Source of the DNA: Lonicera japonica
Taxonomy: Eukaryota > Streptophyta > Magnoliopsida > Dipsacales > Caprifoliaceae
Direction of reading: 5' to 3'
DNA length: 64,000 nucleotides
Assembly: GCA_021464415.1 (NCBI GenBank)
Contig: CM038468.1
Coordinates: 39,482,969 to 39,546,968, forward strand
The first letter of the stretch is position 1. Every line of letters begins with the position of its first letter. Both the position numbers and the translations under genes were made by a program. Below the pieces are notes generated by a model that saw nothing but the letters and a program-made list of their open reading frames with translations, made no database searches and was not told the origin of the DNA. Below, piece by piece: positions 13,455 through 34,921 of the stretch.

Positions 13455-16400
13455 CTATCTGGGCCCAGACAATTCATCGGGCTGGAGGTTGTAGACGGAA
13501 TCGCAAATGATCCAATCAACGTTGAGGTGGTGGGTGTTTCCGAACTCTTGTCGAACAATTTCAGCATTTTGCCACTCTTCCCACCTCTTGGACAAACTAT
13601 CACCATCAAGCATTCTTACAACGTCTGACATCTTAGGGCGGTCGGTCGGGGAGCCATGGGTGCAGAGTAGAGCCACCTGGATCAGCTGCTCCACCTCGTC
13701 ATCATTGTAGTTACCGTTCAGATCTGCGTCCACCAGTGTTTCTAACTTCTTTTTCTTCAGAAGTCCTTCCAACTGAAAATGTCAACAAGATGAGTTTTAT
13801 TCTTTTCCCCTTCAACCCCCTTCAAGTGTCCATGTGTGACTTTTATGTTTCTTAATAATGCACTCATCTCATCACAATCAATAGTTTAGAACCAATATGT
13901 TCTTATAGTGAGTTTTGGTACATCGAATATGTGTTGAAAGAACAAGGAAAAGTGAATTCTTAGTTAGGGACATCCCAAAAAGAAACAGTAAATTCTTAAT
14001 TTGAGATGGAAGAAGTAGTATTTATCTTTGTTGCTTATTGGGAAAAAAAAAGGTGGGTGGGACCAGGGGGGGTGGCACATAAAAATGGGTAAATTCCACC
14101 TATTTTCCATCTTTTGTAGCATTTGATAGCTTTCAATGTAAAAAGGTTAAACAAATCAGCCAAAACTCGTTAAAAAAAAAAAAAAGGAAATAGGAAATTG
14201 AACTTCGTGGAAATGTTGCACATCTTTTGAGGACAGGTTGGCTTTTACTCTGCACAATCTTAACCTTTTCATCTTTTGGTTTTTGATTAGTGCCAAAAGA
14301 AATAATATATATTTATTCCATGTTGAAACTAAGGCCAATCAAACACCTTCAAACAACATTTTCCATGAAAAGCAATCACTAGCAAATAGCAATTCAATTA
14401 CTGAGAATTTGTTAAGGGAGGAAGATCGATAAAATACTTACCCAATCAAGCAACATGGCATCATCCTCATTGGCAAGCCGAGCAAGATCGAAAGCCCTCT
14501 GTCCGGTAATGAGCTCAAGTAGCATAACTCCGTACCCAAAAACATCAGTTTTCTCAGAAGTTTTTCCGGTGGAAAGGTACTCGGGAGCTATATGTCCAAT
14601 TGTGCCACGCACAGCTGTGGTAACATGTGTATTTTCGTAGTCCATTAGCTTAGCCAACCCAAAGTCTCCAACAACTGCTTCAAACTCCTCGTCCAAAAAT
14701 ATGTTTGAAGCTTTAATGTCTCTGTGAATGATCTTGGGGTTGCAATGATCATGCAAATACTCGATGCCCCTCGCAGATCCTAGTGCAATTTGCTTCCTTT
14801 TCGGCCAATTGAGTGGGGATTGCAGTTCTGATCGCTCTGTAATATATATCATCATATCAATTACCTACGAGAATTATCATTATACTACAATTTTTCTTTT
14901 TGGTACAAGTGATAAATCAAAGAATAGACTCAAGGTTCAAGTTGATGGGGATGGGGAGTCTCTCCCATTTAGATGAAGGGTACTTATGAAAGTTCACAAT
15001 ATTGGTAAATATGCTCGACTAACAGTATTTTAATTTGGATAGAGGGAGTAATAAGAGATTGCACGTGGTGGGTACAATGATTTTAGACACGCCAGCATTT
15101 GGGAGATGTAAGTTGAAATACAACCATAACATCGTTTCTAGAGAGAATTTTTACAGCACTTGAAGCGCAATATTGCACAAGCAAGCTGACCAGCAACTAT
15201 AATTCATTTTTTTTTACAAATAATAATAGAATATTTCACTTGTAAAAGGATATTCTTAGAGCATCCCCATCGGGTATGTTAAATGGCCAAATTTAGCACA
15301 CCTGGTCCTGCAGCGGAGAAACTTGTAGGCTAAATACTAGCCTTGTATGGTACAGAGCAAGTAAACTTATCATACCACTAAATTTTACTCATACGGCTAT
15401 CCGTCACTCGTATCAGCCATACGGGTTTAGCTCATTCGTATGGAAAAAAAAAAAGTCGTACGGGTGTGGGACACTCGTATGAGTCATACGAGTGTGGCTT
15501 ACTCGTATGATCCATATCGTATGGAACCATATATATATTTTTATTTTTTATAGATCCGTTAAGCTTGGATGGATTTTGGATGGTATTAAGTTAAGTGTTA
15601 ACTATTTAACTTTTGGGGTGAAAATTTCAAACCAATTTTTTTTTTTGTATTATTTAAGTGCCATTATTTTTTCATCTATAAAAGCAATTAGAATTTAGAT
15701 TAATTTTTTTGTGTTGAATACAAACCATATAAATATATTTTGTCTTTTGAAAAATTTCATTTGAGTTACAAAATTGTAGGGTCAAAAACATAATTTGAGA
15801 TAACGATGCTGTACACGATGTAATGAAAGAGTTAACAAAAAAAAGAAGAAAGAAAATGGTCATACGAAGCTCTCTTGTATGAACCATACGAGTGTGGCTT
15901 ACTCGCATGGCTCATACGAGTGACCTTCACTCGCATGAACCATTTTCTTATTTTTTTATTTTTTTTTAAGCACAAAATTCATACGGCTCAAGGACACCTA
16001 TGTCAGTATATTTTTGCCATTTCCGCTGTGGGAGTGCTTTGAAACTTGGTAATAATTAGTAAGTTTGGCTTTAATTCTTATAATACCCGGTGGAGACGCT
16101 CTTACTAGTGTAATAAGTAACCAAATATAATATACACCAGAACATACGGCACACTCAGATGTGTCTACAATATTGTTTCCGGTAATTCTTGATACTTCAT
16201 ATCTTGCTAACACATTTTGAGGCAATTTGATCAAGTGGTTAAGTTGTATATTGTTTAAAGTAGAAGCCCGCGTGGTTCAGTTCCTACTAGAAGTATCGTT
16301 ATTTTATTTTGGAAGGTCATTTCACAATTTCAGTAAGTGCCAAAACAAAACCGCTAAGTAGTCGTCACAAGGAAGGTTTTGGTGTGTCTGTTAAATTACT

Positions 16401-16979
16401 AAAATAATACCCATTCTTTAGAAAATAAAATACAATTTGATTAGGGATTCAAACCTATCCCTTAGATATGCAGAAAACATCTCTTTACCGCTTGACAGAA
16501 CACTATCCTATATCATTGATATATATGTTTTAATAGTCTACACTATTTTGGGAATTACCTTGTATAATATTGTAAATGTGTCGAGTGTGCCAAGAGTTCT
16601 CACACAGTAACAAAAAACACATAAAGAAACCAACAAGAAGTACCTCTTAAACATGATGCAACACTTCCATTAGCCATAAACGGATAAACGAGCACGCGTT
16701 CTGTGGAAGTCATACAAAAGCCAAGCAAGCGAAGTAGATTACAATGCACAGCCATGCTTTTGATATGGGCTTCTGTTTGGAACATACGCTCCCCACCTGG
16801 AGTAAACTCCTCTTTTCTCCTTTTCAAGGCCACCAAAGTGCCGTCAGGCAAGCGTCCTTTGTAAACGTTACCGAATCCACCACTTCCCACAATATTTCTG
16901 TTGCTAAAGTTGTCTGTCGCAACTTGTAGTTCACGCAGTGAAAACCTCTTGAGCAGTCCTAGACAAGGATACTCTGCAG
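13455..16979 (-). CDS. SERK/BAK1-type kinase domain (last three exons), probable C-terminal half of a tandem kinase
   Basis: Three exons with canonical borders: 16979-16644, 14836-14442 and 13772-13455. They match exons 9-11 of plant SERK genes in content and phase. Kinase motifs are intact: glycine loop [15 protein letters not shown] lysine, HRD in [13 protein letters not shown], the activation loop [17 protein letters not shown] and the family-specific end ELSGPR. SERKs are co-receptor kinases for immune and brassinosteroid receptors. The signal peptide, leucine-rich repeats, SPP region and membrane segment (exons 1-8) are absent; instead the FERONIA-like kinase exon lies 347 bp upstream on the same strand. 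The first exon opens [18 protein letters not shown]. Spliced from 17326 to 16979 it joins that kinase in frame, giving 724 residues with no stop. A separate truncated SERK copy is the alternative. Domain identity is firm; the joined transcript is inference. Confidence 0.85.
15256..16102. mobile_element. TIR element in the SERK intron, rich in CATACGAGTG motifs
   Basis: The ends TTAGAGCATCCCCATCGGGTAT (15257-15278, given here as two parts: TTAGAGCATCC and CCATCGGGTAT) and the inverted form near 16081-16102 (ATACCCGG..GCTCTTA) are terminal inverted repeats. Inside, 'catacgagtgtggcttactcg' type units recur at 15355-15530 and 15857-15945 in alternating orientation, able to fold back. It lies within the 1.8-kb intron between the first two SERK exons and has no coding content. 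Confidence 0.65.
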
Positions 16980-17266
16980 CTGCAAAAGAGAAGATAAATG
17001 ACCATGTTTTCATTCCATTTTGTACCCCAACCAAATTTCATCTGTTTTCTGCCTTTTGTTGTGTATTATTTCATAATTTTGTGACTTGCTCGTCCCCCTT
17101 TTACCCGTAAAAATCCCTAAAACGTAATTAATTTCATCTTATTAATTTCATCTTATATAAATTTTCTAATTTAATGTAGAGTATTTGACTAGACCTCGTT
17201 GGTGGTGTTTCTGGAGAACACTTTCATCCATAACGTCACAAAAATCGTCTGCACGACCTATAAGCT

Positions 17267-18451
17267 TTAAGCATCAACAGTATTTTTGTGAACAATTAAA
17301 TGCACAATAAAGAGAATGGGTTTACCCAAGAACCCCGGAGCTCCAACTGGGGAAAACTGTTTGCTTCTTGAATCACCTAGCTGTAGAACCTTACCAATAT
17401 GGTCATCCTCCCGATAAGAAACTGCATTTTCTTGGTTGTTAACAGACAAACAAGTATCAAACGAGTACTCCTCAATCACGAGATTGGTGCGCAATTGCAA
17501 TGCTAAAGAATGCTCAAGTCTGGCCACCACCTCAGACATTGTGGGACGTTGCTTTGGACGACTATGCAAGCATTGATCCACAATTTGCACAAATTCTGTG
17601 AGAGAATTTGGCAAGATTTCCCACTTCAAATTCGGCCCGATAATCTGATGTAATGCTCCTTCTTTGATGCACTGTTGACCCCATCCAGCAAGACCCCATT
17701 GGTCTTCATCGAGACTTCGATCCAGAGCCGGCCTCTCACAGAGTACTTCCAACAATACCACCCCAAATGCATACACATCCGATTTCCTCGTGAATGTGTG
17801 AGTAAATAAATAATCGGGATCTATGTAACCGATTGTGCCTTTGATGTGCGTTGTGCTAACATGGCTGCATTCCTGCTCTGCGGGGCCAATTCTGGACAAT
17901 CCAAAATCTGAGATCTTAGCTGCCCAATTCTCATCCAACAAAATGTTTGAGCTTTTCACATCTAGATGTATGACTCTGCTGAGGATGGCGGTACCAGTAT
18001 GCAGGTAGTCCAATCCACGAGCAGCCCCTATACATATTTTGAGGCGTTGAACCCAAGATAAAGGTGAACTATTACCATTATCGTTCTTTCTGTGCACATG
18101 ATCAGCTAGAGTTCCACGGACCATATACTCGTAGACAAGAATCATTTCATTATAACTATCGCAGTACCCAATCAAAGAAACGAGGTGGCTGTGTCGAAAC
18201 ATAGAAAGCATATTAATCTCAGTCCAAAACTCAGAGGCACCTTGCTTGGACGAGGGATTGAAACGCTTTATAGCAACAGTAGTAGATGATGATAATGCGC
18301 CTTTCCCATTATTATGAATGATATCCCCTTTGTAGACCTTACCGAATCCACCCTTACCTATAACCAGGGAATCATCGAAATTGTTGGTTGCCAATTTAAT
18401 CTCATCGAGTGAAAAGCGACGGCTTAAGTGCTCTGACCGGGTACTGAACAT
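17267..18451 (-). CDS. FERONIA/CrRLK1L-like cytoplasmic kinase, non-RD
   Basis: Starts MFSTRSEHLSRRFSLDEI; as a single exon it gives 394 residues. The kinase domain (about 13-310) has loop [11 protein letters not shown], Lys62 in VAIKR, alpha-C Glu78, HLD at 162-164 (HRD Arg replaced, so non-RD), NILL, DFG at 182-184 and GYIDPDY. The style 'LATNNFDD..IGKGGFG' and 'VLCERPALD' is that of FERONIA/CrRLK1L kinases, but there is no malectin ectodomain, signal peptide or membrane segment. It would therefore be a soluble or peripheral receptor-like cytoplasmic kinase. A canonical donor (TTGG|GTAAAC) at 17326/17325 leaves phase 1, matching the SERK exon at 16979. Read through instead, the frame ends 20 codons later at 17267. 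The region upstream (18452-18560) resembles that of the 39.6-kb paralog. Confidence 0.9.
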   Translation of the reverse strand: MFSTRSEHLSRRFSLDEIKLATNNFDDSLVIGKGGFGKVYKGDIIHNNGKGALSSSTTVAIKRFNPSSKQGASEFWTEINMLSMFRHSHLVSLIGYCDSYNEMILVYEYMVRGTLADHVHRKNDNGNSSPLSWVQRLKICIGAARGLDYLHTGTAILSRVIHLDVKSSNILLDENWAAKISDFGLSRIGPAEQECSHVSTTHIKGTIGYIDPDYLFTHTFTRKSDVYAFGVVLLEVLCERPALDRSLDEDQWGLAGWGQQCIKEGALHQIIGPNLKWEILPNSLTEFVQIVDQCLHSRPKQRPTMSEVVARLEHSLALQLRTNLVIEEYSFDTCLSVNNQENAVSYREDDHIGKVLQLGDSRSKQFSPVGAPGFLGKPILFIVHLIVHKNTVDA

Positions 18452-18560: not shown

Positions 18561-19483
18561 GGCTGGGGGGAGGAATTTTCATATTTCTCCGTGGGTCTAC
18601 GAGGTGGACCAGTGCTGTTAGTTTTCTATGCAATTATTATACACCGACTCCGATTGGGACACGAGGAGGCTTTCGTTAAACCTCCCTGCTTCAGACAAAA
18701 GAAAAGGGAGACTTGGGACTTGCTCTTCTCCGTTATCTTTTGGTCTAATTTTATTTACAAAGAATTAGTTTGATAATTAAATAGATAAAAATTTTTAAAA
18801 ATTTGATAGAGATAATTTTTATAATAAATAGATAATTTTTACAAAATTTTATTTAAAAAATCAATCTAGAAGAAATGAGTGAAATGATGATAGAAAATTT
18901 GAATGGTCGAAAATAACAAATGCATCAAATATTTACTACGCTTACTTTCAAATTGAATTTCTTGATAAAATTTTGTGGACATAATCTATTTATTATAAAG
19001 ATCATTTCTATCAAGTTTTATGAAAAAAAGCCATCTGTTTAGCCCTCGAATTAGCTATCCTTCGACGAAATTGGACCAAAGGATAATGAAGAGGAGCCAA
19101 GTCTAGGACTTGATATTAATTTTTGGTATATAGTTAATTTGCATGCTCAATCAAATGCACGTTAATTAACTGTACACAGGAGTCTGAGGAGAAAGCAGGG
19201 CCGGTCCGCGTGTTTCGGGGGTTCAAAAGTACAAATGTATTTTCCAAGAGAGAGAGAGTTTGTTGAAAAAGATATTTGGAAAGTGAATCACTAATGGCAA
19301 GTTAGTTGAAAATGAAATTTTGGCCCATTTTCTTTTTAATTACCCAACTCTTGGTATTTCTTAACAAATATAATAATTAATTAATAACTACCGGGAGGAA
19401 AATATTAATGTCACTTTATTGATGTTTTGAGAATAATTTGAATACTTGAAGTAATAACCAATGTTAATTTTTGCTATTTAAAT

Positions 19484-33746: not shown

Positions 33747-34560
33747 AAATAGGGACTTTGAAATGAGTCAAATGACCTTTGTGTTATGTGATGCACGTAT
33801 ATGATATTATAACCATGTATTCAAGTTATATACAATTAATATCCAGCAAAAGTGACAGAAACGAATATTTTGGTAAGGAGCTTTAGAGTCAGATTATGGG
33901 TATTAAGGGTTTTGAAGTGCATCATAACGCTTCCCTTAAATATGGCTAACAATAGCCTTACGGGAGTCAATGTGGATCCTACCATTTATCCGGATAGGCT
34001 TCTTCACCTAGCTGCATTAACTGTAGAGCGCTGGCCCATGACATAATAAAACAAAACCTACAATTAGCCAACATGATACAATTGCATCAATTAATACATG
34101 TTTTAAACATATATAACTGAATTTATATGAGAACCATGGCTTTTCTTCGTTCTTGTTATAATTGTTATCCTTACATTGAATGAGTCCAGTGCTAGTATAT
34201 ATTTTCAATCCACAAACATCAACTGTGTCTTCTTGGGCTAAGACACATAATGCTCATCATAACACAAATTCTCGAACTATCTTCATTTTTAGCTTTTAGA
34301 GGGAGGAGGGGTTGTTCTAGACTTCGAGTCTTTTAAGTCCACAAAACCGTGTCCTCTTCAAACTTTTTGACAAAGAAGTCCATTTTTTTTTGTTGCCATT
34401 TCTTCCTTTTCCCCTCAACAAAAATATAGCAATGCAAAAGTATATATATATAAGATGAAATTTTCATTTTCTAGGAGGCATGATACTTGAAAATGCAGCA
34501 CAAGCTTCAATATTTTAGGTTTATTGATATCATAGCTAATTCTTTAAAGGAAGGATGTCA
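33747..34560. other. Noncoding region downstream of the kinase-HIPP gene
   Basis: No recognisable gene. It probably contains 3' flank of the HIPP part, whose stop codon is at 34922. Confidence 0.45.
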
Positions 34561-34921
34561 AGAAATAAGGGCACTCCTTATGCTTTAAAAATGTTATCCA
34601 TGAGGACCATGACAATCGGCAAATGTTTACAATGTTGATAAAGTGGACCACATTTGTTTATGTAGCTTACTCTTCCTGTTTCCGGTCCGATCCTTCTTTG
34701 TATTCAAGTTGTTTCCATAAAATACACAATAAAAAGGTACAAAAGCGTCCAAAATTCTACAGACCCTACATGTACTTAACTTATAGTAAGAGGGAGAGAG
34801 AGGGCCACATGTAGAGCATAGCAAGAAGATGAGAAAAAGGGACATGGAAATTGAACATTACCCATATGCTACTGCACCCATTTTTTAAAATCCCAATTTT
34901 GCGCCTCACATCCTTCTAAAT

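Follow-up and report, generated by a model that had tools for sequence, protein, structure and literature searches.

A candidate FERONIA-like/SERK tandem kinase gene at a deletion between neighbouring kinase genes of Lonicera japonica

Some disease-resistance genes of crops, among them wheat WTK1/Yr15 and barley Rpg1, encode tandem kinases. WTK1 is a fusion of kinases from two families, the first of which is non-RD, and in the portion of the survey used here 40 of 92 tandem kinases are counted as fusions, with most fusion events in monocots (PMC6170490). In sunflower and lettuce, CrRLK1L-1 (FERONIA-like) kinases without an ectodomain occur as single and as dual kinases, as described in the sections of two studies that we draw on (PMC8866362; PMC10884359). 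RPG1 is listed as an HMA-pseudokinase-kinase protein in the part of a further article that also covers NLRs with an integrated HMA domain (PMC12835825). Here we analyze a stretch of 64,000 nucleotides from Lonicera japonica (contig CM038468.1, positions 39,482,969 to 39,546,968; the window) in which the FERONIA-like kinase gene FER1 is followed on the minus strand by the kinase exons of a SERK gene, SERK1. No fusion of a FERONIA-like with a SERK kinase was seen in the tandem-kinase literature that we searched; the plant-wide atlas of Reveguk 2025 lay outside this search and may list it. Our favored interpretation, which we hold tentatively and rate a little below an even chance, is that FER1-SERK1 is a chimeric tandem kinase gene born by a deletion, for which a joined transcript is predicted.

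Gene model, repeated pairs and the deletion

A sequence-only reading of the window had proposed a four-exon gene in which both kinases are spliced into one frame. We recomputed this model, and exon coordinates, lengths, GT-AG sites and stop count all agree. On the minus strand exon 1 (18451-17326, 1126 nt) encodes the FERONIA-like kinase without ectodomain, exon 2 (16979-16644, 336 nt) the N-lobe of the SERK1 kinase, exon 3 (14836-14442, 395 nt) its catalytic core and exon 4 (13772-13455, 318 nt) the C-lobe and a tail ending in LSGPR. All three introns start with GT and end with AG, the first one (17325-16980) being 346 nt long, and the spliced model of 2175 nt encodes 724 amino acids with a single terminal stop. 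If unspliced, the open reading frame (ORF) of FER1 continues through 17325-17267 to the stop at 17267 and comprises 394 amino acids. The exon borders of SERK1 agree with what we take to be the usual borders of SERK genes.

The Pfam kinase domain PF07714 is found in two separate stretches of the 724-residue model. The best solved-structure matches of the two kinases are FERONIA (7xdy, E 2.4e-96) and BAK1 (3tl8, E 4.5e-174), confirming the family identities proposed before. SERK1 and BAK1 are identical at 255 of 321 residues (84/106 in exon 2, 114/132 in exon 3 and 57/83 in exon 4). Read from the structure-search alignments, the Lys, the alphaC Glu, the catalytic Asp and the DFG motif are kept in both kinases, and the intact catalytic motifs claimed for the second kinase are therefore borne out by the 3tl8 alignment. 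The FER1 kinase is non-RD, with HLD for HRD and DPD for DPE, and should be at most impaired; judged by these residues neither half is an obvious pseudokinase.

As in tandem kinase proteins, two kinase domains stand in tandem in a single spliced frame, here modeled from genomic sequence, and there is neither a transmembrane segment nor a receptor ectodomain. A pseudokinase without the key catalytic residues, as in the tandem kinase-pseudokinases defined in the consulted part of the 2018 survey (PMC6170490), is not found in the model. FER1 lacks a malectin-like ectodomain of the CrRLK1L type as far as Pfam detects one, since Pfam reports only the kinase on the FER1 ORF (no malectin query was run), and the FER1 tail has no Pfam match. 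The FER1 ORF begins just before the kinase, and no minus-strand ORF of at least 80 amino acids lies between 18473 and 24000. SERK receptor kinases consist of a leucine-rich repeat (LRR) ectodomain and a transmembrane segment in addition to the kinase. SERK1 has the SERK-type kinase domain, and in agreement with the earlier claim that its ectodomain exons are missing no LRR ectodomain was detected in the window; away from the kinase-proximal end nothing scored better than E 0.8 with a BAK1 ectodomain query, which does find the ectodomain of the SERK at locus L047.

The surroundings of the locus were mapped by searches of the window and of fetched flanks. In 5' to 3' order the minus strand carries SERK pieces (L014), FER4 with a HIPP/HMA part (L011), SERK3, FER2 with a HIPP/HMA part, SERK2, FER1, SERK1, FER3 and FER5 (L012). 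A search of the own genome with SERK1 gave at least 120 matches, with 116 of 3325 candidates scored, and for most SERK-like copies the sequence covered was 1.5 kb around a single exon. Among the matches listed, further SERK-like copies lie on the same contig and strand at 39.08-39.42 Mb (L018, L019, L021, L024 and L029), two (L022 and L025) on one small contig and other SERKs on further contigs; a full-length SERK with LRR ectodomain is also present in the own genome (L020/L047). In three of the four copies whose upstream side was fetched, units A (L048/L019), B (L049/L021) and C (L050/L029), the next gene upstream of the SERK-like copy is a FER-like kinase with 84-89% identity to FER1. For the fourth (L046/L018) no FER was found in the fetched stretch, which ends within the SERK upstream region. 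Together with FER1-SERK1, FER2-SERK2 and FER4-SERK3 (unit U4) six FER-SERK pairs thus occur in the same order. On contig C6 at 39.08-39.57 Mb (stretches L009-L012, L018, L019, L021, L024, L029, L046 and L048-L050) FER-like genes alternate with SERK-like genes that lack an ectodomain, forming an expanded cluster on one strand with both intact and broken members.

FER and SERK were probably duplicated together as pairs. The silent divergence (dS) of FER1 and FER2 is 0.29 and that of FER2 and FER4 is 0.11, the divergence of SERK1 and SERK2 in intron 2 is 0.22 and that of the FER upstream regions 0.24; pieces of the untranslated regions (UTRs) are lower (0.10-0.14). The HLD motif is present in FER1, FER2, FER4 and units A-C and HRD in FER5 (L012, 5554-4272), which indicates that the RD arginine was lost within the cluster or its close ancestor.

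Between FER1 and SERK1 the region 17297-17095 is FER 3' flank, as seen by comparison with the fetched flanks, and 17087-16980 is a piece of SERK intron with its acceptor, 91 of 108 nt being identical to SERK2. The flank matching U4 ends at 17095 and the intron matching SERK2 and SERK3 starts at 17087, which places the deletion junction at 17087-17095 on the minus strand. The stretch 17340-17088 has no match elsewhere in the window. FER 3' flank is shared over about 690 nt by U4 and FER5 and over 294 nt by FER2 (34426-34719, minus strand) and FER5, and most of it lies beyond the 17095 point and is absent from FER1. Upstream of the 17087 point SERK2 and SERK3 have at least 930 nt in common, a region found also in units A and B and missing from SERK1. 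The distance between the two junction points is about 2.27 kb in A and in B, about 3.1 kb in U4 and about 10 nt in FER1-SERK1. This spacing of about 10 nt versus about 2.3 kb in two other pairs shows that FER 3' flank and SERK upstream DNA were taken by a deletion, and a deletion between two neighboring genes is the plain reading of the alignments. The deleted DNA presumably included the polyadenylation site of FER and the promoter of SERK.

We propose that FER1 and SERK1, neighbors in a duplicated pair, lost about 2.3 kb between them and that this left the FER donor facing the SERK acceptor. Splicing would then run from a FER donor (17325, 17376 or 17394) to the phase-1 SERK acceptor at 16980, with the possible last exon of FER being skipped. 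As the SERK upstream DNA is gone, the FER1 promoter would be the easiest source of SERK1 expression. The predicted product is a soluble tandem kinase of about 700-724 amino acids, consisting of a non-RD kinase and an RD SERK kinase.

Repetitive elements were also seen at the locus. Intron 2 of SERK1 contains an inverted-repeat element at 15965-15444 which is rich in CGTATG/CATACG and resembles a miniature inverted-repeat transposable element. Upstream of FER1 there is a palindrome (18717-19103) that aligns with its reverse complement (68%) and is matched in part near 12039-11842 and 40215-39933.

Selection, splice sites and competing readings

Branch counts over 356 codons gave 23 silent and 18 replacement changes for FER1 (omega about 0.22), 9 and 8 for FER4 (0.25), 38 and 54 for FER5 (0.40) and 7 and 18 for FER2 (0.72). 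From its low omega we conclude that FER1 is a maintained gene. For SERK1 omega over 346 codons is 0.48 against unit A and 0.46 against unit B, compared with 0.34 between A and B and 0.06 between the SERKs L017 and L023; the full-length SERK of the own genome evolves more slowly than SERK1. SERK1 is open, without an internal stop or frameshift in 1049 exon nucleotides, and constraint is seen in the family and little of it on the branch of SERK1 itself. The changes private to SERK1 include no stop and number, silent and replacement, 1 and 15 in exon 2, 3 and 8 in exon 3 and 6 and 8 in exon 4; the replacement excess of exon 2 is not significant (P 0.088). On the SERK1 branch we counted 12 silent and 25 replacement changes for exon 2 in the comparison with SERK2 and SERK3 and 4 and 13 for exon 4 in that with SERK3 and SERK5, and the 38 of 54 replacements on this branch do not fall significantly short of the neutral expectation (P 0.14). 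When BAK1 is used to decide which copy changed, the change falls to SERK1 at 16 of 29 exon 2 sites and to SERK2 at 10, with 3 assigned to neither; in exon 4 the BAK1 residue is kept by SERK1 at 12 of 26 sites, by SERK3 at 6 and by neither at 8. Sites changed in SERK1 are concentrated in codons 51-79 (9/29 versus 7/75 elsewhere, P 0.012), a stretch that was chosen after looking. Five lesions in SERK2 plus SERK3 compare with none in SERK1 (P 0.008, post hoc).

The survival of the SERK1 frame taken by itself was rejected as support for a fusion, since SERK-like exons are intact in units A and B, where the pair has kept its spacer, and also in L022, whose FER side lies outside the stretch examined. 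The intactness of SERK1 does not need a fusion and its openness may be inherited. Within pairs the fates differ: unit A combines a frameshifted FER with intact SERK-like exons, and U4 and unit C have an intact FER and a broken or incomplete SERK. In the SERK L017 on contig C9 there are no stops opposite SERK1 codons, and we take the stops listed for this match to lie in a spanned intron.

The exact restoration of the frame by splicing had been the main argument for the joined gene, and it turned out to be weak. Between 17497 and the FER stop 4 of 17 GTs are in phase 1, and all four give open fusions (17451, 682 amino acids; 17394, 701; 17376, 707; 17325, 724), so that in-frame splicing was rejected as proof of a fusion. 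Scored with an approximate matrix, the donor at 17325 reaches 0.32, within the top 15% on the strand, and is equaled or exceeded by 16 of the 71 GTs of the FER1 ORF; the donors at 17394 (2.43) and 17376 (1.21) both score above it. The former, TTG/GTAAGG at 17394-17395 (minus strand), reads GATAAGG in FER2 (by reading). The donor GGTAAAC at 17325 is common to FER5 and units A, B and C, and FER3 has GGTAAAT; being a feature of the FER family, it may be real without involvement of a SERK. In FER1 it could lead over a 68-nt intron (17325-17258) to a possible native last exon of about 30 codons (17257-17165). An AG about 60-68 nt past the donor is present in FER1, FER5 and unit B, altered in FER3 (AG/CT) and U4 (GG) and absent in units A and C, and the last exon of FER5 would reach a stop after four residues (by reading). 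The SERK acceptor at 16980 is native, being common to SERK2, other SERK-like copies and the SERK L023. It has 12 of 14 pyrimidines versus 8 of 14 at the acceptor of FER's own intron of only 68 nt, which speaks for the joined splice. That the alignment of FER1 and FER2 ends at the same base (17341/38536) was rejected as independent evidence, as an alignment must end where either copy is rearranged.

Several of these findings weigh against a fusion. FER5 and FER3, whose fetched downstream stretches contain no SERK, also have the donor at 17325, and it may serve only the last exon of FER. SERK-like exons have stayed intact in units A and B and in L022, none of which shows the deletion. By three-point subtraction omega is about 0.7 for SERK1 and about 0.4 for unit A, and the private changes of SERK1 sum up to 10 silent and 31 replacement, which is near neutral (P 0.43 for so few replacements). 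The odds of a fusion are lowered by the last intron of the FER family, by the weakness of constraint on SERK1 and by the intact copies in unjoined pairs, and they are raised by the deletion. Of the tandem kinase proposal, then, the frame argument carries little weight and the SERK half is little constrained, while the deletion between neighboring genes makes a joined transcript plausible.

The main rival explanation, somewhat unlikely but to be taken seriously, is that SERK1 is an orphan whose upstream DNA was deleted, FER1 ending in its own way (with the exon 17257-17165 or at the stop 17267) and SERK1 being unexpressed and not yet decayed. This agrees with the FER-family donor, for which FER1, FER5 and unit B have a last-exon acceptor, with the near-neutral private changes and with the decay of SERK2 and SERK3. 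A neutral frame stays open with a probability of 0.13-0.54 over 0.01-0.02 substitutions per site (0.03-0.09 indels per substitution), but that of a long-dead orphan should have broken: with indels the probability of survival is no more than 0.05 at 0.05 and no more than 0.003 at 0.1 substitutions per site, and with substitutions alone it is 0.03 at 0.1. The retention of splice sites, motifs and the LSGPR tail in SERK1 and the loss or alteration of the FER last-exon acceptor in A, C and U4 also speak against an orphan. Clearly less probable is that the locus makes two products, SERK1 being a short cytoplasmic SERK kinase with its own start, or translated by re-initiation, from the ATG at 17013. 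The SERK part had been said to have no other evident start; this does not hold, as the ATG at 17013 reads in frame through 17013-16980 into SERK exon 2. Similar ATG-led frames are found in units A and B, in L022 and, by reading, in SERK3, and intact SERK-like genes exist in unjoined pairs. However, only 287 nt separate the FER1 stop from SERK exon 2, the upstream region common to SERK2, SERK3, A and B is deleted at SERK1, and the ATG does not lead an open frame in SERK2, nor is it in frame in unit C (both by reading). We give still less credit to the idea that every unit is one tandem-kinase gene, whose intron is long (1-3 kb) where nothing is deleted and short in the window copy. The six pairs in the same order, the retained SERK acceptor and the donor GGTAAAC, which units A-C have preserved even where the FER last exon is gone (A, C), would fit such a gene, but the opposite fates of the two halves in A versus U4 and C do not, nor does FER5, which has the donor and no SERK in the next 14 kb.

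Kinase-HMA sisters and other members of the cluster

Two further members of the cluster join the kinase to a different partner. FER2 (39655-38402, minus strand), a paralogous kinase with 80% amino acid identity to FER1, continues in frame from 38536 into a HIPP-like sequence, presumably HIPP because of its VELLSPIPKP stretch. An HMA exon (38277-38190, with HCEACA) and a further HMA/HIPP exon (37323-36840), which enters inserted repeat sequence, follow, and joining them via GT-AG introns gives an HMA domain (PF00403, E 7e-12). FER4 (L011, 8919-5486) has the same layout, a non-RD FERONIA-like kinase with HIPP/HMA in frame; by the omega values above its kinase part is constrained, and that of FER2 less so. 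In the HMA part 2.5 silent and 6.5 replacement changes were counted for exon A and 2 and 9 for exon B, too few to judge selection. In U4 part of the FER last exon sits downstream of the HIPP part, from which we conclude that HIPP was probably inserted into the FER tail. At 35760-34980 (minus strand) Lys/Glu-rich repeats resemble a broken-up HIPP C-terminal part; they contain stops, and an inserted repeat precedes them.

Other copies in the window are remnants, all on the minus strand. SERK2 (29600-26509) comprises the upstream region, a broken exon 2 with one stop and two frameshifts and part of intron 2. SERK3 is represented by its 3' part (61687-60914), intron 3 and an exon 4 with two frameshifts, the 5' part lying beyond the window in L010 and L011. 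A SERK 3'UTR piece at 42715-42646, separated by inserted elements, is probably that of SERK3. Between this SERK exon 4 and its apparent own 3'UTR (60914 to 42715) lie about 18 kb that contain retroelement-like ORFs. The 5' end of FER3 is at 12633-12462, and its remainder, which is broken, is in L009.

Comparison with known kinase fusions

It is doubtful, though conceivable, that the cluster as a whole acts as a kinase "platform", a counterpart of the integrated decoys of NLRs, in which an intracellular non-RD FERONIA-like kinase carries different C-terminal partners by copy. The partner would be SERK in FER1 and HIPP/HMA in FER2 and FER4, and the SERK N-lobe would be changing fast. By analogy FER1-SERK1 might be a tandem kinase of the immune type, its SERK half serving as bait or output, and a role in disease resistance might be supposed on the same grounds. 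If a joined transcript exists, a tandem kinase would be seen here while being born, with several pairs still undeleted in about 0.5 Mb and the spacer missing from one. The gene would then carry a kinase of the SERK/BAK1 family, a central immune co-receptor family, beside sister kinase-HMA genes. The HMA domain is a repeated effector target according to the part of the article used here (PMC12835825), and the bait idea for kinase fusions could then be tested in one cluster.

FER1-SERK1 resembles the sunflower and lettuce kinases, as far as they are covered in the sections consulted, in that these are FER-like without transmembrane segment or ectodomain, clustered, in dicots and in some cases with two kinases in 662 amino acids (PMC8866362). 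Those dual kinases, however, consist of two CrRLK1L-1 halves, of which the left one alone retains its active site, whereas FER1-SERK1 has a SERK as its second kinase, with the motifs intact. FER2 and FER4 recall RPG1 and the NLR-HMA proteins, since in them a kinase of the FER family is joined to an HMA domain (PMC12835825, in part); as a difference, the HMA domain is C-terminal to a single kinase, and FER1-SERK1 has no HMA domain. The SERK/BAK1 co-receptors and SERK1 are alike in the kinase, and SERK1 differs by having neither ectodomain nor transmembrane exon. With WTK1/Yr15 and RPG1, as presented in the portion of the survey used here, FER1-SERK1 would share two kinases in one soluble protein, and with WTK1 also the joining of two kinase families and a non-RD first kinase (PMC6170490); it differs from them in that neither half is an obvious pseudokinase and in that its kinases come from other families.

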